Source of the DNA: Aptenodytes patagonicus
Lineage: Eukaryota > Chordata > Aves > Sphenisciformes > Spheniscidae
Direction of reading: 5' to 3'
NCBI RefSeq assembly: GCF_965638725.1
Contig: NC_134954.1
Coordinates: forward strand, 5,389,001-5,453,000
DNA: 64,000 nt
Shown: positions 4,701 to 61,204 of the stretch, piece after piece
Numbering within the stretch: the stretch's first letter is position 1
Layout of the letters: each line of letters starts with the position of its first letter
The notes under the pieces: model-generated
What the model was told of the DNA's origin: nothing
What the model saw: the letters and a program-made list of their open reading frames with translations, nothing else
Databases searched by the model: none
Position numbers and translations under genes: made by a program

Positions 4701-7700
4701 GGTAATGCAAAACGAGAAGACTTCTCTTTATCATAGCAAAACCGCATCTCGGGAAATGTTGGCAGAGAGATTCTTTTGGTTTGACAGAAGTCCTTTGATT
4801 CAAAGGATTATGTTGGTAGCTATGTCCATTGTCTTTCTGGATGCTACCGTGTGTCCTGCTGACAGTGACATCCTTCCCTTTGTCTTATCAAATGCCTCTT
4901 TGCCTTGCTTCTCAGCTGTCTCTGCGTATCTTTGCTTTCAAGCGCTTCTGTACCACTCCTGGTCAGCCTGCTCCTAACTTCTATAAAATTAACCTGTTTT
5001 TAAATTCTCGAATGGAAAATATTCCTGTTTGACTAAGAGTCCACTTCCGCAAGTTTTGTACTATAGAAATTTTTTATTTAATCTTGACTTTTTTTTTTTA
5101 GTATCTGCTGATGTGATGATTAGGACACTCCTTCTACCCTCTCCCTCACTGCTGCCCTCTTTACTCCCTCCCTTCCAACGCACTGAGGAAGTCTCTTGTT
5201 CAGATGTTTGCACTTCTGGCTTGTGTCAGGAAGGAACAACAAAGAATGTTTAGAACATATGGTTACTGTGGGGAATGCTAAAGTCCTTTTATGCTATTTC
5301 TTACCATTATTGGCTCATGTGGCCTTCTTTTGGCTGCTTATAATATTCCCAGTTGAAATTTTAAATTTAAAATTTTCCTGGGTAAGGGACTTCTGTATCA
5401 GCCAGATTGGAGTATTTGATGGCAGATACTAGTAACAAACCAAAAAATAAATCTTTGCAATGGTAGTGAATTATTGTCCCTTTCCCCAAAAGAAGTTTTG
5501 CAAAAATTAAAATGGTCTAAACAAACAGTGTTAGAGTGAAGGTGATTCTGGCTGTGTTGGCATGACTTTCCAGTCCTTTTTTTCCTTCGGAGCGTGTTTG
5601 GAAAATGTCTCCGTGTGTTATGTGCGTGTGTGTGTATGTGTTTGTATTTTTAAGGGTATTTCCTATATTACTGTATTTCTTGTTTTCAGTGTCATGGCTG
5701 GAGAGCAAAGGAAATGTCTATACCACAGTGAATACTCTGCAGTTCAGAAAGGATGTTTGTGTGTTTTTGTAAGAAAAAAGTTAAATTAACCTTGACTGTG
5801 CTTCTAAATGTGTATGTGAGCCTTTTGCTGTTAAAAATAAATGAGCTTGTGAGATGGTGGAGGGTCTCCGGGGAGGTCTACAAGTATCAGGAATGGCCAG
5901 TACTGCTTATATTCTCTTTTGCTAATAACAATAGCATAGAAATAATAATGAACGCTGTGACACTGGCTTTTCTAAAGCTTGTTCTCCAGACACCTGGGGA
6001 TGGTAGGGTGCTCTGTGATGGCTTGGCATTTGACTTGCCTCATTAACTTCCTGCGTCTTAAGGGATCAGATTTTGCTGGCTTAGACTTGAGATCACACTA
6101 GAATCTGATACAGGGGGACATTAGTGGTGTTGAGTAGCCGTCTGCCCACCGTTCCTCCCACGGAAGTGGCCCTCTATGCCAGCAGAACCCACTCTTTAAA
6201 TATTTCTTTTTTTTTTTTTCCTCCCAGCCCTGGCCTTTGCTGACAACTTTGCTGATATTTGTTTGAGATGAATGCAGGAATGGCTGCTCTGCCAACAATC
6301 ACAAGTTCAACCATAATTTGCTGCTAAATTATGTTAGTAACAAATGCTCAGTGCTCGTTGACAGCGTTTTGAATGTTTAATGTTTCAATTGCCAGACTTC
6401 AGATTCTTTTGTCAGTGGCCTTAAAGCTTCCTTTGTTTGCGAGAGCACCAGTTTTAACAATGCTCTCTGAAGAACGGAGATCTCCGTTCTGCTCGTGTTC
6501 TCTGTAGCTGCCCCTATGATAGCCTGTGTCGCTGGAAGCTTGGACTGATTCAATGGAGGGTCAGTGGAGGATAGTCTCATAGCTGGAAGTTCTGGTCACA
6601 GTGCTATTCCACAGAAATAACCATTGCTGAGCATGAAGAAGCTGGCAGTGATGAGTGGGACCTACGTGTGGGACGTTCTGGCTATGGTGTGCCGGGTAAA
6701 TGCAGATGGCAGAATAGTCTTACTTGGTCATCCTTCCCAAGGGCCTCTTAGGAGATCACTGCCATCTGGATTAAGTGCTGAGGTAGCGCTTGGTTGCTGT
6801 CTTCAGGAACTCTGTAGCAGAGAAAGGAGTAACTGGCACAGCTGCACGGGTGCAGGTTGCAAATATTTGTTCAGGGACAATTTAAATTTAGGCATTATTA
6901 ATTTGGACTAAGGGACTATAATCCTTTTTGTCTCCTGTTAAATAGGGAATATTGTAAAGTATTAGAACTGTGCAAAACACTTGTCAAATACATGGAAAGA
7001 AACAAAGCAAGTGGTAGATACAGTTTTCCTATAAAAAGGTTTGTTAATTCCTCACAAGGGATAATTGTACTTGGCTGTCTACCAGTAAGCTTCCCTCATA
7101 TGTAGATGAGTTGTTTGTGAATCGTTTGGGTTATCAAGTAATCTCTGTAGGTAAGGAAGGGTATAAAGTATCTTAGGATTTTGAAGTAAGAGTTGCTTTA
7201 GTACTTAGGCTTGGTTCTCGAGCTCTTCTTCATAAATCCCCCAACTGCTCTGTTTTAGGGAGATTCTAGTCAGTTCATGGGTATAATGTTATTGAAAGTG
7301 GCTCATGCTAGTTAGAAATCATAAAAAAAAAAAATAGGGTTTTAGCTGTTCTAATGGTAGAATCAAAGTAATTTATCTAAGGAACATAATGCATATGTTT
7401 TGGGTTGTATTTGTATGCTGTATAATGTAGCCTCTTGTCTATTCCTTGTTCCAGTCTGACTTCTTATACTGCTTTAGCATAAGAGGAGGCTTTTCATAGG
7501 CTTCCCCCCACCCCTTGCCATGTTAAATAAACATAAAAATTACATGTATGTATAGTACTGCAGCTTGATGGTTAACTTTGTATTTATGACTATTAACTTT
7601 GTATTTATGACTATTAAAGTTATGTTCAGGATTTCCAATTTTCCTGGACCACCAATGTGGCGACATGCTCTCTTTAATAATGCAAGACATCTGACGCTTC

Positions 7701-28700: not shown

Positions 28701-31700
28701 TCTCCTATAGTATGGCACGAAAGGAAGGCGAAAACTGAAATTCTGTTTGAAATTTCCTTGGATTTTATTTTGTGGATACACTCTATGAATGCTATCTTCT
28801 TGACATTGGTATTGATCTTCCATATTTCTGTACTCTGATTTTTTTAGTTTTTTAAAAACTGAATTTTCCAGTGAAATGAATTTATAAACCTAGCCAAAAC
28901 TATTCAAGTGGTGCCAAACTAAATTCACCCAGGGAAGAAGCACTTTGTATATGAGGAATTCAAGTTGTTCAGTATTCAGGTTGTTCAGTTAGTCCACAAA
29001 TTCTAGTTTTGGAAACTGGCGCTTAGGTTGATACCTCGTTTGGGTTCTACAGGTACGCATCTGCTATGCTGTACTTTTTGGCTGTTTTTCCCTGACCAGC
29101 CACCACTGCAAACACTCTAGGGTTAAGCTGAACTGAACTTGGTCATGCGGTTGTGAGTAGTAGCATGTGTGAGGAGGAGAGAAGTAGCATTAACTGGTAC
29201 AGCTGTGAAGGTGATTTGTGAAAGCTTGTTCAAAGACAACTTTCAGTTGTAGAATATCATGTATAGTTTTTTCATGTAAAAAGAAATTACAAGGTAGGAC
29301 ATAACCCTTGGAGGCTGTCATGACCATGAATTCAGTTAATACATCTGTTTTTGTGTTTATTTCCCATATCCATTAACACGTTTTGTTCCTTTGCAATTTA
29401 CAGCGCAGAACTCTGCAAATGCAGGTTTTGCAAACTTTGATGCATTTGGACAGTCTAGTGGCTCGAGTAATTTTGGAGGTTTCCCCACAGCAAGTCAGCC
29501 TTCTTTTCAGCCCCAAAATACAGGTAGAACTCCTAGCACTTTTGATTAATACTTAATTGAAATAATCCGTTACCTTTATGTTGGAAGGTACTTAAGTTGA
29601 GTTTATTTCTTGCATCTGCCTGCTTTAATGCAATCAAGCCATCTGAAGCTCTGGGGAAACTCAAAATGAATTCCTTCTGTTTGGTGTTGATTTTTTCTTT
29701 TTTTTTTTTCCTCCTATTGCTACTCAGAAGTCTGATTTATGGCACTATGTGTTTGTTAGCTCTACACCTGAAATAACTGTGAAAAGAGTAAACCATACTG
29801 CTTTTGAGAAATATTGAATTGACTCTTTATCTTGTAAGAAAAGTGTTTCAGTAGACCCAAAAGCACATTGCAGTAGCAAAAAAGTGTGTCTATGCGTATG
29901 TATAACACATGCACACACTACAGTTTGACTTCATGTGTAGAGCCTATTGCTAAGATTTATTTTGCTTTCCTTTAATTTGATCATGCTTTAGAACTTCGGC
30001 TTGAGCTTACACTTGCTGTTTGTCTAGATCTTTGGCTGACTGACTTTCTTTTCCTTTTTTTTTTTTCTTCTTCTTTTGAGTGTGGTGGTGTTTTAAACTT
30101 TTTTTTTCAAATTTTCTTTCTCCCTTCTTATGTTAACTTTAACCCACACACAATTTCTGGCTGTCCAGCGTTCAGAACGCTTTCATCTAGCTGCAGTTTT
30201 GGTGAATTTACTTCAGCTTTTCCTCTCCAGGCTGTGCACAGTAAGTTCCACGCAGTGGAAAACTCAGCTTGCTTCATTTTATGCCATTGTAGTATAGCGT
30301 TTTCATTCCTGCTGTTGCATATGTTTTAACTTTGTGATTATGCTATTAGAAGGTTGTGCGTTCTGTAGTATGAGTGGAATCCTCAACCAACTGTTATAAA
30401 ATATGATACACTTAATGGAACAACTCCTTTAAATTTAAGTACGTGACCTGCCTAGATTAAATTGTCTGGACACTGAAGATATGGAAGCTCATGGTTTCAC
30501 GTTTGAACTGAAGTTCAATTGTGTGGACTTAAGTCAGATTTTTAAAATTGATTTATGTATCTCTGATGTCAGTGGAGACTTGGTATAAAGAGAGCTGTGT
30601 TGTGTCTTCCCCCTCTCCTCTTTCCTGATTGGATGTAGTCTAAAAACCTAAGAACAGAGAACCAAACTATCTCTCTAAACCTTGGCATGGAATCATACTA
30701 CTGTTGGAATTCTAGGCACTGTTTTTTGCTTAGAATGATGACTGACATCTGAAACAGTTAAACACTGTGCCATTAAGTAAATGCAAATAGTAGCTATTCA
30801 TTAGACATGTGGCAGGAAAATGAAGCTTCTGTATTTTGAATATTAAAGATTCAGACAAATACTTATTTTTCTAGCAAAATATTATTGTAGAAATTACTTT
30901 AATGGCTAATAAATGGCATAACGTTTTTCAAGATCGAATTATGACTGTGATTTAAGCTGTCAAAGCTTGTTTTTTTTTGTCCCTGATCTGCAGACTGAAA
31001 AATGTAAAAAAAATTTATTTTTTCTGATGACCCAATGTAACTTTGAAGGAAAGGGGAAAGGGTCTTAAACATGTGGGATGGGGCGGGGGAACATTTTTGC
31101 CTCACGTAACCACAAAGAGGTGGGATTATTGTGCCATCAGTTACAGTTGGAGAGACTTTCTCTAGCTTTGGAGTGTTGATCATGTTTAACTTAATTTGTT
31201 ACAGGTGGAAGCGCTGGATCAGTGAATGCTAACTTTGCTCACTTTGATAACTTCCCCAAATCCTCCAGTGCTGACTTTGGAGCCTTCAATGCTTCTCAGA
31301 GCAGCACAACAGCAACTGCAGCCAGTAAAGCTGCAGTGAATAAATCGAATCTCCAGTCAGCTGACAAATACGCAGCTCTTGCTAATTTAGATAATATCTT
31401 CAGCGCAGGGCAAGGTATTAAACTTTATTCTTTGACGTGCTTATTCTACATGTTTATACTTACCACGAGGATGGCTGTGCATGTCAAAATAGCAACCGTA
31501 TTTCAAAATGTCCTTTCTTTAAGTTACCAGTAGAATTTCACATCAGTGTACCCTTAATGTGTAAGATGTAAGTTTTAAGACTAACATCACTCCGAAAGGA
31601 TGTCATCAGAAGACTGCTTTTTGGGAACCTACTTGCTATCAAAATGAATAACTCTTAAGTGGAAATATCTAAATAATTATGACGGCAATGATGAAAATAT

Positions 31701-34700: not shown

Positions 34701-37700
34701 TAATTGTGCTGTTTTGGATCATCGTTAAGAACTTGTAGTTTTGGATCATCGTTAAGAACTTGTAGTTTTGGATCATCGTTAAGAACTTGTAGGCTCTTTA
34801 GATAAGCTTGTTTGAATATGGCAACTTTATCCTTCCACCTTCTAAACTGCCATCCTTGGCTTGCAGAGGTTCCAACCCTTTGGCAGCTATAGTGATGTTA
34901 TGTACTAGGTAACAGAGATAATGACTATACGTAAAGATAATATTCTACCCCTTTCAGTGTGAGGTGTAAACTTGTAGCTTGTCCTTTTATGCTAAGCTTT
35001 CTTTCTGCATGAACTTTGCTATTTATTACATGGGAGATCTTGTTTTCTAGCATTTATTTCTAATGGTTTTCTTAGCTTAATCTATTGCTGGTCATGCTAT
35101 GGACAAGTTGTTTGGTACATATACGTGTGTATATTTTTCTATATATATATATATCTCTAAAACTAAGAAATGACTGTGTATAAATGATTTGACATTGTCT
35201 GGTCTCTTTGTGGCTTCCATAAGGCCTCTCGGGAGCAATGCACTCTCACATATTTCCTCAGGCTCATTTTGGTAGGTGGCCACATTTGGTATCAAGTTTC
35301 TTGTGGCTAATTGTTCTTGCTTGTAAAAGCTTATTGACAGCTATCTGGTTCTCTGCACTTAGAATTTCGGAAGACTTTCTGTGTTTTAAAATCGAGTGGG
35401 TGTGGGCAAAGGGAGAGAAGAGCATACATGGGCAACCTATTAAGCAACTGAAACAAAACCATTATTGATATCCTTCAGGGTCACAATATAATGTGAACAA
35501 GTTGAGTGACTCTTGAAGTTTCTACCAACAGTAGCTTGATGCCTTTTGGGATATCCCAAGTCACTGCTCATTTTGTTGTGCTTTTGTTTGCTGTTTTAGC
35601 AAGTTTTCCTGTCGAATAGCTTCTCTGCTCTCTGTAACTTGAGAACAATGTTAGCACATTAGTTTTGCGTGTACTTTGTCAGCAGTTTATGTATGTATAA
35701 TGTCTTGCCCTTGAATGCTTTTGGGGTAAATTTTTCAACTGATAATTAAGCTATATTCATTAAATACATTAATTTTTTTTAAACAGTTGAGCTTGCATAA
35801 AATCTAACTTACAACATTTCAAAAGAAAAGTCCTGTCTAATGTTTAACTAGAATAAAATGCCTGGTGTGTCTGTATTTGTACCAAAAAAACTTTTATACG
35901 CTTCTCCTTTCAAGAATAACTCCCAAAAGACTGAATAATGGTTTTGTTACTACATTTTTGCACTTGATGTGCTCCTGTTTATTTGCTGAAGGCATGTGGA
36001 ATAGCATATGAGCTGTGTGTTCTTTACTTGAAATGTTCAGCAGAGAATCAGATGAAAAGTTTTGGATTGTTTTTTTGTTTTGTTTTGTTTTAAGTCTTAC
36101 CTCAACAGTAAGAGCATTTGCAGTAGGAACTTTGTGTGCAAATAATGTGCATGGTGAAAATTTCCTTTAAAGTGATGTTAAGGATGGGATGAAGGGAGAG
36201 GGGATGCATGTATCCCTTATGACTACTTTTTTTTTTTTGACTTGTAACTTCCTGTAATGTAGCTTGAAGTAGGAAGATCCTTTCAGGCTTTTCTCGGAAG
36301 GAGAAAAACAGAGGGGCTTATGCTGCCTGAAAGTGCTTGCTTCTGATAAGTACAGACGTTTACCAGAAAAACTCTGGGGGAAGTATATGATAATGTAGAG
36401 AACGTAAAAAATAATTTCCTTTTCAGAAAGTATATCTGAATGTGCTGGATCTAGCAAATTTTAAATTATTCCATTCATTTTTTTAAAGTGCAGAAGTAAA
36501 TTATGCACCTAGTTGGTGGTGATCCAAGCTAACAAATCAGTTCAGTGGCTGTAGAAGTTGAACCAACTTTTGTATGGTCACTGAGGCATTAGGAGACTTT
36601 TCTTAACATGGCATTATAGTAACTTGTCTCATGAAAAAAAGTGATTTCTTACAAATAATTGAACGTTATTTTTTGCCTACCAGCAGCAACATTTGGTACT
36701 GCATCCATGAGCATGCCTGCAGGATTTGGAACTCCTGCTTCCTACAGTCTTCCTACTAGTTTTAGTGGCAACTTCCAGCAGCCCACGTTCCCAACCCAGG
36801 CAGCTTTCCCTCAACAGACTGCTTTTGCTCAGCAGCCAAATGGTAGGTCTGTACGTTTTAGATAATCTTGTTTCAATCAGAAACATGGCGAAAATGATGT
36901 ATCTGTAAGTTAGCAATAATGGGTGTGTACTTACTTCTGTATGAACTTGGTAATAATATTGATGAGGGGTTCCCATGCTCCGTAGTTGAGCTTTCTGACT
37001 TGGCTGTGTGCAGTGACATAACTGAAATTTTGCCATAATCTGATACTAAAATTATAAGTGTTCCCAGGCTTAAAAGGTTTTTGTGCGAGAAGGATTGTTT
37101 TGTCTTCATATTTGGAGTGTCTGCAACCGTTTATAACGCTTTCTCTAACTTCATAGAACACAGGCAAGAGAAAATTGGAAAGTACTTTCTCCATAAATTT
37201 AAATGATAAAATAATAATGAAAAAAGTGCATATGTAGAAATTGGAAACTAATTCGTTCCGAACAGTTGAAAAGAAACAAAAAGCCTAGCCATATTCTTAT
37301 TTACACTTATGTTCCTGATAGTGTTTAAGTAGGATCAATCCTCCTGATTGTGCGGTCCAAGCTTCCACGTATTTTTGTGTGGGAGCTGCAGCAAAGAACT
37401 CTTTGAAGATTGATTACTAGTATTAATATTTTTCACTTCTCTTTCCAAGGAGCAGGTTTTGCTGCATTTGGACAGGCAAAGCCTGTAGTAACTCCTTTCG
37501 GACAAGTTGCAGCTGTTGGAGTATCTAGTAATCCTTTTATGGTAAGTGAGTTGTTGCATGTTATTAATAACTTCTGTATGTCTGAAGAGGCATAATCTGT
37601 AACATTTAATGTAGAGACACACAAAGCTGGGGTTTTTTTCCCCTTCAAATAAGGGAAGGCAGCATGTGAATCTCCTAAATGCAATTCATTATTACGATGA

Positions 37701-42883: not shown

Positions 42884-43006
42884 TTAATGATCAATGCTTT
42901 CACCAGCCACGCTGGTATTTCTGCATTTGATGGAGATAATGGTGTATATGCTTCTGATCAGGAAAATTCCAGCTATGACTGTAAAGTAGCTGCCATAAAT
43001 GAGAAA
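42884..43006 (-). CDS. SLC19A3: SLC19A3-like copy A, last coding exon (with stop)
   Basis: The acceptor is tttcccag ending at 43007. Encodes [20 protein letters not shown] and a short tail ending ESIDH, with TAA at 42886-42884. The tail is 19 residues shorter than in copy B. Confidence 0.92.
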   Translation of the reverse strand, partial: FLIYGSYFTVIAGIFLIRSIYTIISIKCRNTSVAGESIDH

Positions 43007-46000
43007 CTGGGAAATGGAGGGGGGGATGAAGGAGGAAGAAGAGTCAAAAACTGCTTTTGCTGTTAGGTAATAACTGAAGGGGTGTCCCGCCACTGCTGCC
43101 TTCCCTTCCCTGTCACCCCTGCCCCAAAATGATCCCATCTTGAAAGGATTCAAGAAGTCTGGCTGCTTGACTTCATACTGTTGGAAGTCTGCGGTTGTAA
43201 AAGGAGGGGGAGAGAATACTCCGTTACGTGCTTCCTCTCCCCAGCTCCGTGAGGGAGGACGACAGCTCTGCCCTGCGCTTTCTGGCTCCTCTCTCGAAAG
43301 GTGAAAGCTGGAGACTTGGACCCTCCTTCAGCATGTAAGTTTAAACTTTAAACTTAGAAATTTAATGGGGAATCATGAGTTTAGTTAATTTTCAGAATTA
43401 CATTAGCTTAAAGATGCATCCAATGAAACTATGTAACTTAAAATTACCCTAGTAGTAGGCCCGTAGATGGCCTTTCAGCTTGCTTCCTGCTTCCGTTTAG
43501 GGTATTTTGACAATAAACTTGTGAATAGTAAGCCTTTAAATAAAAAAGACCCAACCCTGAGTAATAGGTGGTGGTCTTTCCCTTCTGCTCTACGAAAATA
43601 TTCTTAAAATCATTGCAGAAATGCAAAATTGGCAGGCCTAGAGGACAAGTAGGTGGTAGTAGCTACTGCCAGTTCACTTTAAACAAACCTGTTTTTCAAG
43701 TGAATAACTGCCCTAAGCTAGCCCGCTGCCTAATATCTTGCCAAGGGCTGATCTTGGAGTAGAACCCTCTTTGGGAGGAGAGTAGGGGAACTGAGAGCAG
43801 CGTGAACCATGTGGCTTACCTGGGTGCTGATATCCAGTCCCAGACCTCTTGAATCTACTACAACAACGGTTAAAATTGTCTGAATCGCCAGCGCAACAAA
43901 GTTGTTGAAGCCAAACATCAAGGCGTAACGCTCCATGCTCAGACTGACGGCAATCTGAAACCTGAAAATGAGCGTACAGGTTAACTGAACTTTGGGGAAC
44001 ACGGACGCTTGCAATTTACTTACGGGAGGAAGGTTGGGAACAATTTAATGTGCACAGCGGGATTCTTCATAGAATAAAGCCTCTTCAATCTTAGCTATTA
44101 AGCTTTAACAGCTTCATTTTGGCAGAAATCCCTTGTTTTTCTGGCTCTGGCACTTTTGTGCATCCTACTTATCTTTTACTTATTTGAGTGGATATTTTTG
44201 CGAAATAAAGACCTGCGTATGTTCATTTGATCATTCAGAGAATACTTGTATTTTCATCAATTCATGTATTCATGAACACTTGAATTGATCATTGAACAGC
44301 TAAATGCAGAATAAGGTAGTTTCTGACTTGGAATAACCTATTGTAATGGTTAGGTCATATAATTTTAAGCATAGTTTTATATAAGCTAGAAATAATATGT
44401 GCTGCTGTCATGACCTATTTAAAAATCTTCTAGGGAAACTTTCAGTAAAATTTTGATAAATTTTAAAGATGTGACACTTACTGATTTAAATCAATTTAAT
44501 TGGAACTGTTGTGTACCATACTTACGTTGCTATTGTTATGAGGAGCATATAGCACGCTTTAAACACGAGGTAACCAGCGTAACACGCCCAGATGTTGTCA
44601 GTGAAATGCATGAGAAACAGAGACCCAGCGTCCATTGCAGAGAAAATTCCCAAAGCCAGTTCTCCAGAAAGATCCCAGTTTACTTTGACGTATCCAACTG
44701 CCATGGATGTCGCTGAACCTAAAAAATTACAGGTAAGAATTAAAACTCTGAAACATCATCATCCTTCTAGAGCCCTTGCGTAACTGTCTAAATGGATCAC
44801 GCCAGGAGCTCTTGAGACTGTTAGGGCCACAATGGGCCTTGGTAATGGTGTGGCTTATATTTTCTATTAGCGGTGTGGGAGTCTTCTGCTTGTTTGGGGT
44901 TTTTTTTTTTCCTTGCTTACAGAGCCTTTACAGATGGAAGTACTCTGAGAAAGTGCCTCGTGCCTAAGGCTGGAGGCAGCAGTGTACCATTGTTGTTGTC
45001 TATTGTCGTTACTCCATTTTTTGAAAACTGTGAGCAAAGAGAAGAACAATCCCACCAAGCATTTTCTGCCAAAATACGCATAATGGAGTTTAATTCCTTC
45101 ATGTAAAGATCTTTATGAAATGAAATGCAAATCCGTTGCACTCCTTCATGCTTTGTGGTTTTTTTTTTTATGAAAGCATCTTTTTCAGTTCCTGGTGAAA
45201 AATCTTATAAACTGCATTTCTCAATGCCTTGTTGACCATCACATATAGTAAAAGCCCTTACTTGAGCGTAATATGGTGTAACAAACTCCACTGCCTTGAT
45301 TTTTTTTTTTTTTTTTTTTTAAATCTCTGCAATGATGGTGAGTTTTACTTTTCTCCCCGTCTCCAGTCTGGAGAAATACCGTCTACTGCTGTAAGAAGGT
45401 TATCCAGCTATGGGGTTTTTTTAATGCTCCTTTAGCACACAGGCTCCTGTAGGCTTACGAAAGCTCTTTTGAAACACAGTATGCTGAGTGAGGTTAGTAG
45501 CTCAAATGCAAAGAGAGGTCTGGTCCAGGCAGGTTATACAGCTGTGAGTTACCGGAGTCCAGAGAGTACCAGTTGCCCAGATGTTTTCAGGCAGGCTTGG
45601 CACCCTAGTGCAAGATTGGACTTCATTTGCTGGTTGCACGGGCTCTTCATCAGAATTCAGAAGGTCATAGCAGGCCTACTCCTTTGGTCCATCACTGCTA
45701 TAACCGTAACTGAGTGCTTTCTGTACTCTGAAATGGTATCGAGTGCCAGAGGGTGTACAAGCAAGAAAGCCCTTGGGAGTGCTGCTCAAACCAGTAGTCT
45801 CAGAAGTTTTGGGGTAGCTTCAGTAAAATGCATTTTCATGCTGATTGCAGGGAGGAAGAGCAAACTGAGAGTTCCCTGTAGAAATGTGAGTTAAAGCTCC
45901 TGGTATGAAGGAGGAGAGAGAGCTGTGTAAATGTGAGCTTAAAAATGTGGCTCCATTGGTGCTGCACAGCTATTTAAATGAAGAAGTTATACTTTACCTA

Positions 46001-49000
46001 TATGCCTTCTGTTCTGCGGCCAAAGAGGAATGTCATTTGGATGGACCGCGTAACTGTAATGAGAATCGGAATGGCTGAGGTTGAAAGAGACCTCTGGAGA
46101 TTGCCTAGCCCTAAAAGCAGGGTCAACTAGAGCAAGCGGCTCAGGATGGTGTCCGGGTTTTGAACATCTCCAGGGATGGAGAGTCCACACCTCCGGCCAA
46201 CCTGCTCCAGTGTTAATCACCCTTACAATAAAAATGTTCTTGTATGTTTAAGTGGAACTTTGTTTAAATTTGTGCCCCTTGCCTCTTGTCCTGTCACTGG
46301 GCACCACTGGGAAGAGTCTGGCTCCATCCTCTTTCCCCTTCAAGTATTTATGCACATTAATAATATCCCTCATTTTCTCAAGGCTAAACTACTACAGTAC
46401 TCTCAGCCTCTCCTTGGATGTCACATCCAGAGGCAAACTCATTGACCAGGATACAGATGCAGCCACAGAGTATTTGTTCAGGAGCACTCATCCTGAAATA
46501 ATCTTTAATCCACTGTCTAAACAGACCATCTAGAGCAGTGTATCTGTTAATATGCTCTTAATTTTTAAACAACCAACTTCAGGCGTAGTTGAGGGAGGAA
46601 TAGGCAAGGTGTCATTGCACAGGGTTTTTAAACTGCTTATTTGGGGTTAAATTCATGGTCCAAACAGAGCTGTGAAATGAAAACTCTTAAAACGCTTTGG
46701 TGGAATGAGGCTCCCCTAAGAAGGAAAAGCTTATACCTATGTATTTTTTTAAGATTATTTTTGAAGACCCAACTGATAAAGTTATACAGTAAAAACATGC
46801 TTTGCACACTATTTGTTTGGGTGTTATATATTGGAGGCTGTTGCTGTTGACCTTGGTCCTCATAAGAAATAAACAGGCACCAAAGACATTGCTGAAGAAT
46901 GCCATCAGCACACGATGGGTTAGCAGTAGTTGCTAACGATCTCTTACTTACCTAAAAAAGTTGCTATTGCTTCAACGGCTCCGTTGTACACTGCAGAGCT
47001 GTGAGAGGGGGCTCTGAAGTCCCACAGCACTTGGATATAATTCAGAACCTGGTTAAAGCCTGCCGTAGCCAGAGCCCACCACAGGGACCAGTAGAGAAGT
47101 TTCCTAGAGCTGTAGCAATCCCTCAGGTCCTTGCTCAGCTGCACCAGTACCCTGAGCACGTGATTCTGGGGCTCGGCGTTACTGGCCTGCTGTTCGGGTG
47201 CCGGTCCCCTGTCGGCAGACACGGAGCCCTTGTCCTCTTGGCAGCTCGATGGCCTGTCGGAGCCGACCGTAGGCACACCTTTGTCTGGTCCCGGGAGAGT
47301 TTCTGAGACGTCTTTCCTGTGGAAGAACATACTCTTTTGAGGCATTGGGAGGAAAAAGGAGCACAGGAATGCCAGGGACACGGAAGCCAAAGTAATGGCA
47401 TTAAGGTGAAAGTAGGAGACATCTGCTAAGGAAACCAGCAGCTGTCCCAGCACGGCGGCAACGGTGGCTGCAACAAGAGTGATACTTCTGCAATAGCTCG
47501 TCACTCTCTGATAGTGATCGGTGCTGACGACGCTGTAGATGTAGGCATAATAGGCGACCTCGGTGGCTGTCACCATCCCGTAGAAGAATTCCACCACCTG
47601 CATGGCCGCCACTCCATGTGCGAAGAGGAGCAAGAGCCACGTGACGATGAAGCTGATGCCCTGGAGGAGGAGGATGGGCTTGTAGCGCACGTAGTCTGTA
47701 ATCAGGAAGACTGGGAAAAGGAGTGCAAGGTAGGAGTACGTCCAAACTGGGAAAATATGGTTGGTAACCTGGAAGAGAATAAAAGAGGAAATATTTTTTT
47801 AAAAATACATTTAAAATGTTGGTTTTGAAGTTTTTGATGACGGTGTTGAAGGAACGTAGTTGTGGTGACAGGAAACGTTGAATTGTGTGAATTGTGCTGA
47901 CTTAAACTGCCTTAAATCACAAAACTCTCACTGTACTCCTCAAGAGGCAAAGGTAGTGGTGCTATGCTCCACTACATAAACAGGTAGCCTGGCTTAAAAA
48001 ATAGTTCTAATAAAGGCCCATGAAGAAGGCAGACTTTTTGATGTGCAGCTGTTCAAAGCGGTTATAACAGCGTTTGTCAGAGGAAAGTGTCTAGCATCGA
48101 ATCCTATTCTCCGCAGTAGCTGAAAATGAATGCCTATTTAGTTTTAACTTTTACTGAGGCATTGTATGCCTTTGTTCACCTCTCTCCTTTGTTAGAATTA
48201 GAAAAAAATGCATATGCCTCTCACGGTGGGGGAACTGGAACTGCACATAGCAAGCGTGTCGCTGTTACTACACTATCTTCACCTTGTTTAACCACCTTGA
48301 GTGGTTAAACATTGGACCAGGCTGCCCAGGGAAGTGGTGGAGTCCCCATCCCTGGAGGTATTTAAAAGACGTGTAGATGAGGTGCTTAGGGACATGGTTT
48401 AGTGGGCATGGTGGTATTGGACTCGATGATCTTAGAGGTCTTTTCCAACCTCAATGATTCTATGATTCTACATTTTCTTCAAATTTAATGTGTAAGAAGT
48501 AAGCAAGTCTTTGATGGAACAGTATTTCAGTAAGTTTCAGTTGGCCTTCAATGCATAGATGCTCTGAAAAGAAATTCTTTCTCTTTTTCTAAAACTGATC
48601 TGCACGTTTACTGTCGCCACTAAAGCTCAGTGCTTGCCCAGGGAGCTTGACTACAGCCGCGGCGGGGGTATCCCCTTCTTTCAGGTACGGTCATAGAAAA
48701 AGTTCACTTTGCGATGTGCACGTTGCCTGTTTTGGGGAGGTCTTATCCAGTAACTGCTGGACCCGCTAGGCTATCCGTTCACGATGGCTCGTTCTCTGCT
48801 TAAGCAATTAGACTAGAAAGGGATCGTTTCAAGTGCTGGAGGAACAACAGTAGCTGGTTATCTTTTTACTTCTGAACCGGTACTGGAGTGAGTTGCGTGG
48901 TGAGCAGCAGGTTCACTGTATCTTTCTGGGTGAATTCTTTTGTTTCTCTGAATTTTAATTAGAATTTTTAAGTGTTTGACTGAAACTTATGGAATTAGCT

Positions 49001-49167: not shown

Positions 49168-50107
49168 TAAAAAAGGGGGACTCCCACTCCCCCCAACAAC
49201 CCAAACCACAAATACCTTTTTTTGGAAGAAACCTTGGGTTCACACTGTGCTGGCAGATTCTGCCTTAACATTTGCTACTGCACATCAGGAATGACTGTTC
49301 TTCTCATTAGCTCTATGTGGGTGTACCAAGCTTGCGTTTTCTAATTATACCATTAGCTCCATGACTCAGCCACTTGTTAACTATGTCCCCTTTTGTTGGG
49401 AAGTGTGCTCCTGATGCAGCCGGTGCTGAACAGAAGAGCAGAGCAAGGAAATTTGCAGTGCGTGCTTTTGTCAAAAACCGTATTTTCTTTTTTGCATGTG
49501 AACCTGACCTCCAGAGGGTAATGAATGCATCAGACAATCTTGTAATGTAGGTCATAATCTAACAGCTCATAAGGGGAAGTCTGCTTGGTTTTCTTATGAT
49601 TTACAATCACTGCGTTACTGTCGGTGTAATCAATTCCACAATAAGTATAAATAAATCTTAGTGTTGCTCCTCTGGGGCTCTAGGTGGGGAGAGGAACTAG
49701 CTGACCTGATTTTGCTGGAAGTATCCATTTCTTAAACAACCACCAAAGTGGTTTCAAACCCTAAGAATGTAGGGACTTTAAAGTTTTGACCTTCTGCAAA
49801 AGAGGTGAGTCCTTAGTCTTTTTCCAGAGCATCTTAAATACAAGTGTCTAGATAAAATATACCTGTATTATTGAGCACTTTATCACCCCTTCAGTTACTG
49901 CTGTAAGACTTAATGCTTTAAGCCTTTTAATTATTACTTAAGAGAATAGTTACGTACCTCTTCAATCGTTAGGTTTTTGTCTGGTCCGGTTAGATAAGGA
50001 GTGAGAAAAGATTCCGATGGCCTCATTGTGGAGAAAAATCCGTTCGCACAGATGATCAGCGTGGGATAAATCCAGCTGCGGCCGACGGCTTCCTTCCAGC
50101 AATCCAT
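42884..50107 (-). CDS. SLC19A3: SLC19A3-like thiamine transporter, copy A (gene span, start to stop codon)
   Basis: Five coding exons join in frame (150+817+193+142+123 nt) into 474 residues plus stop. It is a 12-helix major facilitator family carrier expected in the plasma membrane; human SLC19A3 imports thiamine. Residue numbering matches human through the first half: G23 (a human disease position), E32, N45 in an NLT glycosylation sequon, W59, E110 and Y113 are all present. E32 and E110 are reported substrate-site acids in the human protein. The central loop after [12 protein letters not shown]-type sequence is hydrophilic, as usual. The C-tail is short (ends GESIDH), which explains the length below human 496. 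No frameshift or stop is seen. It lies between AGFG1 and copy B, the position of human C2orf83/SLC19A4P, so orthology to SLC19A4 is possible. Substrate is inferred. Confidence 0.92.
43820..43961 (-). CDS. SLC19A3: SLC19A3-like copy A, fourth coding exon
   Basis: The acceptor is ttttcag ending at 43962 and the donor gtaagc at 43819. Encodes [20 protein letters not shown] through LDISTQ. Confidence 0.94.
44526..44718 (-). CDS. SLC19A3: SLC19A3-like copy A, third coding exon
   Basis: The acceptor is tttttag at 44719 and the donor gtaagt at 44525. Encodes [20 protein letters not shown] through YMLLITIA (last codon split), transmembrane segments in the C-terminal half. Confidence 0.94.
45300..45320. 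repeat. Poly(T) run, 21 T
   Basis: Homopolymer in the second intron of copy A; on the gene strand it is poly(A). Confidence 0.8.
46057..46420 (-). mobile_element. CR1 LINE 3' fragment (about 360 bp), diverged
   Basis: Read on the minus strand this is the CR1 3' region. On the plus strand it shows gttgaaagagacctctggag, ccagggatggagagtccaca, cttgtcctgtcactgggcac and aatatccctcattttctcaa in the typical order. Noncoding, in the second intron of copy A, same orientation as the gene. Confidence 0.88.
46952..47768 (-). CDS. SLC19A3: SLC19A3-like copy A, second coding exon (817 nt)
   Basis: The acceptor is cag (47771-47769) and the donor gtaagt at 46951. Encodes residues 51-322 plus one base, starting [20 protein letters not shown] and ending EAIATFL. 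It covers most N-terminal-half helices, the cytoplasmic loop and the first helix of the second half. It differs from the copy B exon at only about 11 of 817 positions. Confidence 0.95.
48311..48470 (+). mobile_element. CR1 LINE 3' fragment (about 160 bp)
   Basis: Contains aggctgcccagggaagtggt, ccctggaggtatttaaaaga and ttggactcgatgatcttaga, and ends in tgattctatgattcta, the CR1 3' terminus. Plus orientation, opposite to the host gene intron it occupies. Confidence 0.95.
49145..49174. repeat. A-rich run (A23, T, A6)
   Basis: Homopolymer in the first intron of copy A; no retroposed body recognised beside it. Confidence 0.8.
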
Positions 50108-55222: not shown

Positions 55223-55402
55223 CTACAGCCGTGTCGTATAGCCAGGTACAATCTGCTCTTTTGATGCGTGTTCAGCACGGTTCAGATGCTCTTTGCAAGA
55301 TCTTGCTATTTTCCTTTTGCATTTGCTTGACACAAGCAGGCAAATGCTCCTGATCGAGAAAATCCCAGCTATGACTGCAAAGTAGCTGCCATAAATTAAA
55401 AA
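55223..55402 (-). CDS. SLC19A3: SLC19A3 copy B, last coding exon (with stop)
   Basis: The acceptor is cctag ending at 55403. Encodes [20 protein letters not shown] and a long tail ending PGYTTRL, with TAG at 55225-55223. The last helix is well conserved; the tail is not alignable to copy A after the RSI motif. Confidence 0.88.
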   Translation of the reverse strand, partial: FLIYGSYFAVIAGIFSIRSICLLVSSKCKRKIARSCKEHLNRAEHASKEQIVPGYTTRL

Positions 55403-58400
55403 CTAGGAGGGGGAGAGAAAAAGGCAGAAGAATTAATGAGAAGCACATTTGGGAAACGCTGCTGCTTCTGGAGATGGCAGATACTCTAATATTATTTGTT
55501 TACCTGCGTTCTGGCACAGTTTCTCTACGTTCAAGTTTTTCCTTTTGTGATTAAGCAAAAATCTTAGCTTTTCCAGCAAACAGCAGATCTTTGAGGAATG
55601 AAGAACTGCCCCTTGCTTCCAATCCTTATGCCTCTTAATAAACATCAGAGGCGGGGAGGGATAGGTCCTTTTTTGCTCTTACTTGCACATTTCAGTGCTG
55701 TCACCACACTGGCTTCAGTAAATATGCCATGACTTTGTATCAGTATTTCCATCAACAGTGGCAAAGCTATTTATGAAGTCCTACATATTCCTGTCCTTAA
55801 TTTTAAAGTTTTAATTTTTAGTGTTTAATTCATTCTTTAATCTTTTAAAGTAATTTTTGCCTTCTCTGTGCAGAATATCTGAATAGCTTTAGTCTTCCTC
55901 AAATCCATGGGAGTAGGAAGCTGCCCCAGCTGAGATCCCATCTGAGAAAATGCAGAAGTCAGTGCATCTCAGTTGACTCCAACATGAGTGGAATTGCGCT
56001 GACTGAAGTTAGGGACACTGTTGTGAGATAGGATGTCCCACCCCAAATTAAGTGCCCAAACTACAGGCAGAAAACTCTGTTATTCACGTTGAGATACAGA
56101 CCAGGTTTGCTCCTGAGCTGGAATTAGAAGGCAGGTGTCGTTTTCACTTGAGCTGAAATAACTCCAAGAATCTAGGCTGTGTCTCATGGCCTTGAACTCC
56201 CCTAACAACATGCGGTCATGTTGGTCCTGCATCTGAGAAAACCAGCCTGAATTTTTGGGCAGAGAAGATGTAATTCAGTGTCCTATTAATTAGCAAAAGC
56301 TGGTCAGATAGCAGGGCCTGACTTTACGTTCTGGTGTATCTGCCTTTAAAGAGTCAGAGACCAGCATCTGTAATCCTAAATGCTGCACTAGAAGGCAGAA
56401 GGGAAGAATGATGGCCAACACAAGGGAAGAGCAAGATGTCTAGATTTCTATAGATGAAAGAGGGAATTAAATTGTCCTTTGGCATAGCAATTTCTTTCTT
56501 GGTAAACTTTTGAAGAGGAATTGGCTAAGCAGTAAATAGGAAGTAAGTTAATAGCACTTACCTGAGTCACTATGTCCAGTTCCAGGCCTCTTGAATCCAC
56601 GACGACTACTGTAAGAATGGTCTGAATCACCAGCGCAACGAAGTTGTTGAATCCAAACATCAAGGCATAGCGTTCCATGCTCAGATTGACTGCAATCTGG
56701 AACCTAATGTGAGTCTGCCAGGTCAGTTACTTCACACTGGGTGGAAAGCTGTTGCTCTTCATTTAGTTGATGAAGAGAAACGATTCACGCAGATGATATA
56801 TCAAGGAAATGGTGCTTCATTTGTTTGTTTGCTTCCTTGCTTTCTCTAAAAAAAAAGTCTGGACGACTATACTATATTTTGATGTTTTTGTACTTGTCTG
56901 TGTTGCTTTTCCAAACCGTGTTACCGGATGATCTGCTTTATCTAGTAGAATATCAGATCTCTTTAACCTTCCCCTTTGTTCCTTCTCTATCTTCACAGGC
57001 CGTGCCAGACAGGTTGTAAAGTCTCCATGGTTGGAGGCTTTCAAAGACCTGGCCAGACAAAACCGTGACCTCATCTGGCATTGGCAGGAGTTCTGCCCTG
57101 GCTGGGAGGTTGGGCTAAAAGGTCACTACGGGTGTCTTCTAACCAACTTTTCTGTGATGATGCAAATCGCTCTTTGCTTTACGGCTTGACAGCGGAGGTA
57201 GCACACTGTTTATTTCTGTCAAGATCCCGTAGATTCTCCTTGCAATATCTTTTTTGACAATAATCAGAACATCTTTCCTTGCAATATTTACCTCCAAAGT
57301 TCCTATCTGAACAAAAGGGTGTTATTCCTGCAGTACTCTTTTCATTGATTTTTAGCAGGGTTTTTTGTGCAAGCTTTTACTTTTTTTTTATCATAGTTTT
57401 AGCAGTTTTTTTTAAAATGGTATCTGAATAATTTTGTGTTTTGACATAAGAGTGCATCTGGTATTTTTGTTAATGAAATAGTGTGGTATGTCTAAAGACA
57501 TTCCAATCAATAAAATAACTGGAGTAATAAAAATGTTTTCTATTTATTACACAGATTATATATAATCTTTGTTATTTACATTATTTTCATTTTTCTAATT
57601 CTGACAACAGAATAGCTTGGTCTCCTAAGAGATCTTGTCTGAGTTTGTATGTCCAATGTTCTCTTTTATTCCTTCTTTACATCATAATATCGTTAAGAAT
57701 TATATGTATAAAGTTATTTTGGGGAACACTTATTTTGGGGAACACTGTGCCAAATCTTTTCTCGCATTCATGCAGTTTGTACACTTCTTAGCATGCTATA
57801 AAGTGCATCAGCGAGGTGGTCTAGACATAAGGGGATGTTAAAGGATGGTCGTCAAGGCATGCTTGTCCCTATTGTTCACTTTGCATCTTCCATGCCAGGC
57901 AGGAGGAAAACAGCTTATATGTTTTGCTGTTACCATTGCCTTCAGTAATAAAGATACCTTGTACCTTGACTGATTTCTGCCTAGGTAAATGTTCAATGTC
58001 CTTTTGATAATTTTTCTTTTACGGTTGTTTAGAAGAATGAAAACAACATAACTAGACATTTAAGTGTCCTTGTCTTTACCTAAACAGTTATGTCTAGCGT
58101 TAGATCAGCTACCTCTGAGTAAAAGGAGGGATGCCCAAAGTAAACTTAAAGTACGGCTAGTATTCTGTGCATAATGGCAGCACTGTAAGGTTTTATACTT
58201 ACGTTGCTATTGTAATGAGGAGCATATAGCATGCTTTGAAAATGAGATAGCCGGCGTAACATGCCCAGATGTTGGTAGTGAAGTGCATGAGAAGTAGAGA
58301 ACCAGCATCTATTGCAGAGAAGATCCCTAAAGCCAGCTCTCCAAAGAGGTCCCAGTTAATTTTCATATATTGTACTACAAAAGATGTTACCGAGCCTAGA

Positions 58401-61204
58401 AAAAGAGAAAAAAAACACGTAAATGTTGTATCTGTTCTACAGCCTGTATCACCAGGTCTTGCCACCCTCACATGCCGAAAGGCAATGCTGAATAATGAAG
58501 CAGAGTAGTTCTGAAGTGTTTTGAAAGCATTTCTAATCGCTTCTGAAGTCGTGCAGATGACTGGTCATTTTTTGACAACTGCATAAATCAAGCCTCTGCC
58601 ATTCCTTTCTCAATGTTTTATTCCACTTCGCAGGATAAACTGTTATGTAGAAGGATTCATTATTTAGCTGTCTGTACCCGGCATGCATCTCTAGGGAGAG
58701 AATTAGGAACACGGTTTGGAGCTCAAGAACAATTCTTCCAGCTTCTACTAGCTTATTTTATAGCTAAGCTAGTAAACCTTCTAGCTTAACGGTTTAGCTC
58801 TGTGCAGCTCATAAAGGGGCTAAGCTGCCAAAAAAGGGACTGTTGTGAGGCATCAAGTGAGTATATTCAGGGAAATGAGAAAGGATAGGCACTGCTTGCT
58901 TTTGGTGGGCCTGCTACAAAGACGCATCTGTTGCGAAGGTAAGCCACCTGACTATCCATCTTAGGGGTCTCATACAATTTTAAAACTTCTACACCTCTAC
59001 ATTGAGAAATAGCCAATTCCATGAGAAAGAGGAATTCATGAAGGAGTAGACGCTACAGGAGTTAAGTGCTTCTAATTTGCGATTCAGTTGGTCTATTTAG
59101 TTGCCTACCTCCAGACGAGAGCAATTTTTTAACTTAGAAGTACCTGTTCCTCCTTAATGGCTGTAAGGGTAACCTGAATGATGAGGTATGATGTAGACAT
59201 GTTTATTTTCCTTGGTGGGTCACACCCCGATGTCTTGTGCAAGTTCTCTACAGCAGCACAATATAAATATGTGAAACGCTGCCAAGCCAGGGTGGTATCC
59301 TTTGATGTTAACCTTTCATTAACATTGCTTTGCTTGTGTGGTGTGGGCATCTGCTTCCGGTGCAAAAGCATAATGGTTAACGTCAGTAGCGTCATGAATT
59401 CAAGAAGCTCTTTTTCTGCAACTCTCTGTATCTTGGAATGACTAAAATTCTTCTTTCTGTCCTGCTGCACAAGAGTATTTCACTAGAAAATGGTCTTAAT
59501 GAGAGGATTATGTTCTTTTTGTGTAAGACATTTCTGAAAAAATTCTCTCATCTGTGTGAGCTACCACCATTGTTATGGGAACTGTGGGATACTTTGGGGA
59601 AAAAAATCCCCAACAACCTCATCCAAAGAAACACAGGTGCCTCTGAATGGATTTATCAGCTGGGTGTAAAGTCTGTGTGACTTGTACACTCTGTGCATAC
59701 TGGTAGGATAAAGTTGGGTGTCCCAGCGCTAAAGAAAAAATGCATAGCTCACATTTGAACCGTTTTGTACATCAAAGAATGTACTTGAATGCGCAGTGCA
59801 TACACTGGCTTCCTGGAGCGTCTGCAGTGGAACGGCACTTTAAAAGTGTTCTAAAGTAAAACTTTAGAGACTGCCTTTGTGATCGATGCTTAGACACTGA
59901 CTTACTCAGAAAAGTTGCTATTGCTTCAACGGCTCCGTTGTACACTGCAGAGCTGTGAGAGGGGGCTCTGAAGTCCCACAGCACTTGGATATAATTCAGA
60001 ACCTGGTTAAAGCCTGCCGTAGCCAGAGCCCACCACAGGGACCAGTAGAGAAGTTTCCTAGAGCTGTAGCAATCCCTCAGGTCCTTGCTCAGCTGCACCA
60101 GTACCCTGAGCATGTGATTCTGGGGCTCGGCGTTACCGGCCTGCTGTTCGGGTGCCGGTCCCCTGTCGGCAGACACGGAGCCCTTGTCCTCTTGGCAGCT
60201 CGATGGCCTGTCGGAGCCGACCGTAGGCACACCTTTGTCTGGTCCCGGGAGAGTTTCTGAGATGTCTTTCCTGTGGAAGAACATACTCTTTTGAGGCATT
60301 GGGAGGAAAAAGGAGCACAGGAATGCCAGGGACACGGAAGCCAAAGTAATGGCATTAAGGTGAAAGTAGGAGACATCTGCTAAGGAAACCAGCAGCTGTC
60401 CCAGCACGGCGGCAACGGTGGCTGCAACAAGAGTGATACTTCTGCAATAGCTCGTCACTCTCTGATAGTGATCGGTGCTGACGACGCTGTAGATGTAGGC
60501 GTAATAGGCGACCTCGGTGGCTGTCGCCATCCCGTAGAAGAATTCCACCACCTGCATGGCTGCCACTCCATTTGCGAAGAGGAGCAAGAGCCACGTGACG
60601 ATGAAGCTGATGCCCTGGAGGAGGAGGACGGGCTTGTAGCGCACGTAGTCTGTAATCAGGAAGACTGGGAAAAGGAGTGCAAGGTAGGAGTACGTCCAAA
60701 CTGGGAAAATATGGTTGGTAACCTGGAAGAGAAGAGGAAATCTCTGTGTTGTTATTCTTGGGGAAAAGAAGATCATTTATTTTAAATGGCTTTGTAGAGG
60801 GAAGTCTTTTCTCTGAAGGAATTAATAAAATATATAACCACACTGAAGCAGCCTGTGACTGCTGAGCAGGGAAATAGATCTTGAATCCATTAAATGGATC
60901 TTTTATTTGTGCCATCTGCTGCAAATTGTAATCTGCCAAAGCTGGTTACAGTTGTGCTTTTTTGGGTTTTCATCTTTGTTTAAAACTTCGTTTAAAGTTT
61001 TACTTTTTTATTTTTGCTGCTCCATATAAAAGAAAAGGCAGAGTAAAGCCATACCTCATCTATGGTCAGGTTTTTATCTGGTCCTGTCAGATAGGGTGTT
61101 AGGAAAGGTTCTGATGGTTTCATCATGTAGAAGAATCCATAGAGGCAGAGGATCAGGGTGGGAAAAGTCCAGGTGTTGCTTTCCTCTTGCTTCCAGCAGC
61201 CCAT
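55223..61204 (-). CDS. SLC19A3: SLC19A3 thiamine transporter, copy B (gene span, start to stop codon)
   Basis: Five coding exons (150+817+193+142+180 nt) join in frame into 493 residues plus stop, close to human SLC19A3 (496). It has the family MFS architecture and keeps G23, E32, N45 (NLT sequon), W59, E110 and Y113. Position 29 is Lys where human and copy A have Arg. The C-tail is long and basic ([13 protein letters not shown]...), ending TTRL, close in form to the human STKL ending; this fits a class I PDZ ligand pattern. Predicted role is plasma-membrane thiamine uptake. All splice junctions are canonical GT-AG. By length and tail it is the better candidate for the one-to-one SLC19A3 ortholog. 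Nearest neighbour is copy A, 5.1 kb downstream in the same orientation. Confidence 0.93.
56562..56703 (-). CDS. SLC19A3: SLC19A3 copy B, fourth coding exon
   Basis: The acceptor is attag ending at 56704 and the donor gtaagt at 56561. Encodes [20 protein letters not shown] through LDIVTQ. Same length as copy A, with about 25 differences in 142 nt. Confidence 0.94.
57000..57165 (+). mobile_element. Degenerate CR1-like 3' fragment
   Basis: caggttgtaaagtctccatg, ggttggaggctttcaaagac and ctgggaggttgggctaaaag followed by ccaactttt resemble the CR1 3' region but are diverged, and the terminal attctatg repeat is degraded. Plus orientation. Confidence 0.65.
57714..57745. repeat. Tandem duplication, 16 bp x 2
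   Basis: Two adjacent identical copies of ttattttggggaacac in an intron of copy B. Confidence 0.9.
58203..58395 (-). CDS. SLC19A3: SLC19A3 copy B, third coding exon
   Basis: The acceptor is ttctag ending at 58396 and the donor gtaagt at 58202. Encodes [20 protein letters not shown] through YMLLITIA. Same length as copy A (193 nt), with about 40 differences. Confidence 0.94.
59906..60722 (-). CDS. SLC19A3: SLC19A3 copy B, second coding exon (817 nt)
   Basis: The acceptor is cag ending at 60723 and the donor gtaagt at 59905. Encodes residues 51-322 plus one base. Amino-acid differences from copy A are few: I/V, H/N and V/A early, V/I in the loop, S/G, V/M, and the split G/S codon at the end. 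Confidence 0.95.

Follow-up and report, generated by a model that had tools for sequence, protein, structure and literature searches.

The window analysed here, a stretch of 64,000 nt from Aptenodytes patagonicus (contig NC_134954.1), contains two complete SLC19A3 (thiamine transporter 2) genes in tandem, both on the minus strand, and raises the question of how one of their five coding exons can be nearly identical in the two copies when the other four are strongly diverged. Copy B (493 residues) lies upstream of copy A (474 residues) in the same strand and on one contig, with a spacing of ~13 kb from exon 2 to exon 2, and the DNA of the window is without Ns. The coding exons are as follows.

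Copy A coding exon 1, 49958..50107, minus strand: 150 nt, diverged (dS 1.24 versus copy B)
Copy A coding exon 2, 46952..47768, minus strand: 817 nt, homogenised; codes for residues 51-322 and supplies the first base of codon 323 (11/817 differences, dS 0.021)
Copy A coding exon 3, 44526..44718, minus strand: 193 nt, diverged (dS 1.02)
Copy A coding exon 4, 43820..43961, minus strand: 142 nt, diverged (dS 1.00)
Copy A coding exon 5, 42884..43006, minus strand: 123 nt including the stop codon, diverged (dS 0.48 over the first 29 codons)
Copy B coding exon 1, 61055..61204, minus strand: 150 nt, diverged
Copy B coding exon 2, 59906..60722, minus strand: the homogenised exon
Copy B coding exon 3, 58203..58395, minus strand: 193 nt, diverged
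Copy B coding exon 4, 56562..56703, minus strand: 142 nt, diverged
Copy B coding exon 5, 55223..55402, minus strand: 180 nt including the stop codon, diverged and longer than exon 5 of copy A

The identity of both genes is clear from their deduced products, which contain the Folate_carrier domain (PF01770) at full length (4.6e-178 in copy A and 2.6e-178 in copy B). In a PDB search with copy A, the best solved relative was thiamine transporter 2 (683 bits), ahead of transporter 1 (537 bits), and the closest protein to copy A among the matches listed was from the Adelie penguin, with 97% identity. A search of the window's assembly (1.35 Gb in 618 contigs) with the DNA of exon 2 retrieved four matches, corresponding to the two copies and to two distant relatives (79% and 72%), one of them in a gene that, from its translated exons, is presumably SLC19A2. 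Elsewhere in the window, an open frame on the plus strand (31195-31533) may correspond to AGFG1 and had no Pfam match, and four open frames other than those of SLC19A3 were searched against Pfam with no match; a search of the window against Rfam yielded no match at gathering scores. The window also contains a tandem repeat of 27 nt in three exact copies (34711-34792) and 2.2 copies of a repeat unit of 21 nt (7572-7617).

Comparison of copies A and B over whole codons revealed ~40/150 differing sites in exon 1, 39/189 in exon 3, 25/141 in exon 4 and 18/87 in exon 5 (first 29 codons), whereas in exon 2 only 11 of the 817 sites differed, with three of these within its final four bases. These values agree with the hand counts of a first-pass annotation, made from the letters alone, which had singled out exon 2 as near-identical (about 11/817) and exons 1, 3 and 4 as diverged. 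Synonymous divergence was equally uneven: dS was 0.021 in exon 2, far below the values of 1.24, 1.02, 1.00 and 0.48 in exons 1, 3, 4 and 5 (the latter over its first 29 codons only) and the value of 0.95 for these exons pooled. Likewise, 1/138 fourfold sites differed in exon 2 versus 33/67 in the other exons, and among codons with a conserved amino acid there were 3/256 differing versus 58/140 (Fisher p = 8e-27). The silent sites of exon 2 are thus as alike as the annotation had claimed, and protein constraint is insufficient to account for it. We also ran a conversion-type test as a permutation of the differences along the coding sequence, in which none of 20,000 permutations equalled the observed segment score or the longest identical run. 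Blastn comparison of locus against locus matched only the five coding exons and, beyond ~24 nt at the acceptor of exon 2, found no homology, at this sensitivity, between the introns of the two copies; the comparisons of silent sites and introns refer to this window only.

To place the two copies among those of other birds, here represented by predicted proteins only, we ran three protein searches and kept the best 120 matches of each, together 145 different proteins, from a collection clustered at 90% identity in which many species are hidden inside clusters. The aligned set consisted of 105 avian rows (85 species), six reptile rows and the two window copies. Each avian row was typed twice against copies A and B of the window, once in exon 1 and once in exons 3-5, resulting in 52 AA, 46 BB and five BA rows; in one more row exon 1 was unclear and exons 3-5 were of type A, and in another exon 1 was of type B and exons 3-5 tied. 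The pairs used came from all 12 species having both types (Melopsittacus, Caloenas, Myiozetetes, Agelaius, Melozone, Prinia, Limosa, Struthio, Dromaius, Egretta, Corvus, and Opisthocomus) and from the window, making 13 species; rows P0029, P0037, and P0080, also from paired species, were left out. Exon 2 is incomplete in the rows of Egretta B, Corvus and Opisthocomus, which were compared over 225, 222 and 181 columns, respectively, and the Limosa A protein has an unrelated start, its exon 1 being compared over 14 columns only. Two of the five BA rows are the B rows of ostrich and emu: their match to window B is limited to exon 1, exons 3-5 fall almost equally to the two copies (109/108 and 102/101), and their assignment to type B is based on exon 1 and on the tree of the flanking exons. 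Additionally, the two ostrich rows are from differently named records, and some of their differences may be those of two individual birds; the emu B row is named as an isoform.

In exon 2, the paralogue from the same species was closer than the same-type copy from any other species in all 26 rows; this was so in none of the 26 rows for each of exons 1, 3, and 4, nor in any of 24 for exon 5, with two ties. Mean residue divergence of exon 2 between copies A and B of one species was 1.4% (0 to 5.9%), compared with 18.4% for the same copy between species, and in the flanking exons the relation was reversed (24% within and 12.4% between species). In 12 extra comparisons of A with B across species of one family or order, some of them reusing rows from the 13 pairs, exon 2 was closer than the flanks in 12/12. 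The exon 2 proteins of copies A and B differ at one or more residues in 10/13 pairs and are identical in the other three (Melopsittacus, Agelaius, and Limosa). The ratio of divergence within to divergence between species was 0.06-0.12 in three parts of exon 2 and 1.2-2.6 in the other exons. Judging from these proteins, exon 2, and only exon 2, is in concerted evolution, in the sense that paralogues are closer within species than orthologues are between species.

The emu pair has 16 differences in exon 2, of which 14 are in the loop at residues 201-219, and two gap columns. This cluster (P0028 versus P0089, Dromaius) is the only dense one in exon 2 among the 13 pairs, and may reflect either true local divergence or faulty annotation. 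Separately, in the models P0032 (Melospiza), P0059 (Serinus) and P0037 (Melopsittacus), exon 2 connects an exon 1 of type B with exons 3-5 of type A; such joined models could result from read-through splicing (copy B being the upstream gene), from hybrids generated by crossing-over in exon 2, or from mapping artefacts.

Separate trees of exon 2 and of the flanks conflict as conversion predicts, in line with a check proposed in the first-pass annotation. In the tree of exon 2, constructed with the 26 bird rows and six reptile rows, copies A and B of one species were sisters in 12/13 pairs, the emu copies being neighbours but not sisters; this tree implies 13 changes of the A/B label, and the AU test rejected a clade of A copies (three sets of identical rows being unconstrained in this test). 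Conversely, the flank tree contained an A clade (100/95) and a B clade (99/95), with a single A/B change. The presence of both types in ostrich and emu places the duplication no later than the last common ancestor of living birds. A closer dating is prevented by the flank tree, in which crocodile falls beside A (86/78) and lizard beside B (94/83), on opposite sides and with modest support. The two proteins of Crocodylus porosus were considered as a duplicate pair for this dating and discarded: exon 2 shows no difference between them (0/248), exon 1 differs only within its first nine residues, the part beyond exon 2 has 3/116 differing sites, and they look like isoforms of one gene. As to the direction of the last transfer, at the six replacement differences the A protein of the Adelie penguin has the state of window A three times and that of window B three times, favouring neither copy as the donor.

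The edges of the homogenised tract were then located with respect to the splice sites; on the minus strand, the acceptor of exon 2 is at the 47768 side and the donor at the 46952 side.

Intron at the acceptor of copy A exon 2, 47769..47792, minus strand: ~24 nt that align with copy B 60723-60741 across a single 5-nt gap; probable tract end, on moderate evidence
Intron at the acceptor of copy B exon 2, 60723..60741, minus strand: the matching 19 nt
Last four bases of copy A exon 2, 46952..46955, minus strand: three of four differ from copy B 59906-59909; donor-side tract edge

The alignment of the two introns at the acceptor had a score of 13, which was reached in 3/20,000 shuffles; 24 non-homologous acceptor pairs scored no more than 8. 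The acceptor pair of exon 5 also scores 13, so the evidence for intron on this side is only moderate; it suggests that the tract probably runs ~24 nt into the acceptor-side intron. On the donor side, the score of exon 2 (7.5) was no better than that of exon 3, and intron homology was nil past the splice consensus. These edges coincide with what the annotation had described, a similarity fading within about 25 bases at the acceptor and at once at the donor. Codon 323 is split by the intron, its first base being the last base of exon 2 in the window, and encodes Gly in 13/13 A proteins and Ser in 13/13 B proteins. The initial base of a Gly codon is G, and that of a Ser codon is A or T; therefore, provided that the phase of the exon is conserved, A and B differ at the last base of exon 2 in all 13 species. 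Furthermore, 11 residue columns show disjoint sets of residues in A and B across the 13 species (considering rows having a residue), and none of them is in exon 2. As read from the window and from the predicted proteins, the donor-side edge is sharp and stable across lineages. In the window, the exon base immediately preceding the donor is G for copy A (46952) and A for copy B (59906), and the splice context of copy B is less typical.

We consider it very probable that these patterns were generated by recurrent interlocus (ectopic) gene conversion between copies A and B of SLC19A3, occurring between genomic DNAs and confined to coding exon 2. At the protein level, exons 1 and 3-5 track the old duplication and exon 2 alone is homogenised in the 13 species; because this occurs in all of them, conversion appears to be recurrent during crown-bird history and not one recent event. 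Thus, the proposal of an exon-confined gene conversion in the first-pass annotation holds, but not that of a single recent tract. As a mechanism, indels and substitutions accumulated after the duplication would have left the introns unalignable, with the 817 nt of exon 2 as the only homologous stretch of sufficient length for recombination to initiate and proceed. The genome of the window has two copies, and a constant number of two among birds would argue against unequal crossing-over. Exon 2 is ~4 to 7 times longer than the other exons, and the minimal length of homology for efficient recombination in mammalian cells is roughly 200-300 bp. With introns that do not align and only exon 2 above this length, exon 2 alone would be exchangeable, and the other exons (123-193 nt) would escape by being below the needed length or identity. 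Each conversion would restore the identity required for the next one, creating a self-sustaining island, and the exchange would halt where the heterologous intron starts, producing exon-exact edges with no role for splicing. Selection may help to retain converted alleles, as exon 2 carries nearly all of the thiamine site, although the pattern would not require it.

The history of living birds is of the order of 100 million years. In its widest form, to which we incline only slightly, our proposal is that a single exon has been in perpetual exchange through all of this history while the introns and the neighbouring exons diverged, with two transporters built on one interchangeable core, with stable edges set to within a few bases by the loss of intron homology, and with exon length deciding what escapes.

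The sharpness of the edges is also what would be expected from a spliced template, by which a cDNA of one copy, reverse-transcribed from its mRNA, recombined with the other copy and left a tract ending at splice junctions: the tract does end nearly exactly at the exon edges, and donor-side intron homology stops at the splice consensus. Such a template, contemplated in the first-pass annotation, would nevertheless bring neighbouring exons along, and none is homogenised in the 13 species, nor is any exon-exon junction crossed; besides, the last base of exon 2 keeps its copy-specific state in 13/13, and the ~24 nt of acceptor intron are seemingly shared (3/20,000 shuffles), with the reservation that the acceptor pair of exon 5 scores the same. 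We do not favour this origin, which seems very improbable. A single recent conversion in this lineage would fit the window by itself. It is, however, contradicted by the homogenisation of exon 2, with species-specific sequence, in 12 other birds, unless those gene models are artefacts, and its probability appears just as small. Artefacts could take the form of one real exon 2 placed twice in the assembly, or of one exon serving two gene models, and the three pairs with identical exon 2 proteins could indeed be one genomic exon in two models. Against this, the two window exons differ at 11 sites, lie ~13 kb apart in DNA without Ns and are surrounded by unrelated introns, and 10/13 species pairs show at least one difference in the exon 2 protein; an assembly artefact is unlikely as the cause, and we give this whole class of explanations very little credit.

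Recurrent conversion also has to be weighed against selection. Purifying selection alone could keep the membrane helices of exon 2 alike, since residues 51-199 differ by just 12% between species. But dS is 0.021 in this exon versus 0.95 in the others, and a poorly conserved loop (residues 200-258) differs by 49% between species and yet by 2.7% between paralogues of the same species; this loop is homogenised like the rest of exon 2, indicating that protein constraint is not the cause, and the explanation is hardly credible. GC3 is higher in exon 2 than in the other exons (0.67 vs. 0.53, p ~0.002); we dropped it as a mark of GC-biased conversion because, in SLC19A2 of the same genome, the homologous region has the same contrast (0.79 vs. 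0.59). Selection could act otherwise, if other parts of the genes were also converted but only exon 2 were retained, both transporters needing the same thiamine site and their ends having to differ. Of the 14 thiamine-contact residues named in PMC11447181, 13 are kept in both copies, the exception being position 36, where the human protein has Ile and the two bird copies have Thr; from these conserved residues, both copies would be expected to transport thiamine. Twelve of the 14 are encoded by exon 2, all of them conserved in both copies, and the 11 columns separating A from B in all 13 species are all outside of exon 2; moreover, PMC2720389 argues that such a long duration suggests selection. 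On the other hand, silent sites and the variable loop are as homogenised as the core, and the edges are at splice junctions and not at the limits of helices or domains. Retention by selection as the explanation of the pattern is therefore doubtful, albeit clearly less so than the other alternatives, and selection may act jointly with the length limit.

Recurrent conversion confined to exon 2 makes this locus a natural experiment on the limits of gene conversion, in which the longest of five homologous exons is homogenised in 13/13 birds and the other four in none. The avian tandem pairs make possible a direct test, in vertebrates, of tract edges and of the minimum length of homology and, if our proposal is true, exon length would govern which parts of duplicate genes escape homogenisation. 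In practical terms, orthology calls, trees and selection tests made with whole SLC19A3 proteins in birds mix two histories.

We found no description of exon-limited conversion in bird SLC19A3 among the matches listed from the open-licence literature, and the locus can be compared with several known systems. As with the solved structures of SLC19A3 (PDB 8z7r, 8s4u and others), both bird copies are full-length Folate_carrier proteins, and birds differ in having two copies with a common core exon. Among bird genes, segments of the TLR1A/TLR1B and TLR2A/TLR2B pairs were homogenised independently in most lineages, as evidenced by GENECONV and by conflicting similarity to orthologues and paralogues (PMC3125219). 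SLC19A3 resembles them in that bird paralogues were homogenised in segments in separate lineages; however, the conversion regions mapped in that work end inside the coding sequence (e.g., from LRR14 to the TIR domain), whereas the ends of the SLC19A3 tract are splice junctions, and the TLR pairs are immune receptors instead of a vitamin transporter.

The closest parallel is with the mammalian pairs BMP8A/B, DDX19A/B and TUBG1/2, which have been in concerted evolution for more than 100 million years (PMC2720389). As in bird SLC19A3, there are two linked copies in which, in each species examined, some segments are alike within the species and others are long diverged, and the boundaries of the tracts are conserved between species. 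The tracts that PMC2720389 lists from genomic DNA nevertheless span exons and introns, whereas that of SLC19A3 is one exon, with introns that are unalignable in the window. The screen in that study demanded at least one intron of high similarity; an intron homogenised together with the exon, a requirement that served for screening and does not define the process, was not found here. Since homogenisation is limited to the exon and the introns do not align, a screen of that type would miss SLC19A3 and, in general, screens demanding homogenised introns will overlook cases like that of its exon 2. Bird SLC19A3 is thus a variant of long-lived segmental concerted evolution that involves a single exon, between introns that do not align in the window.
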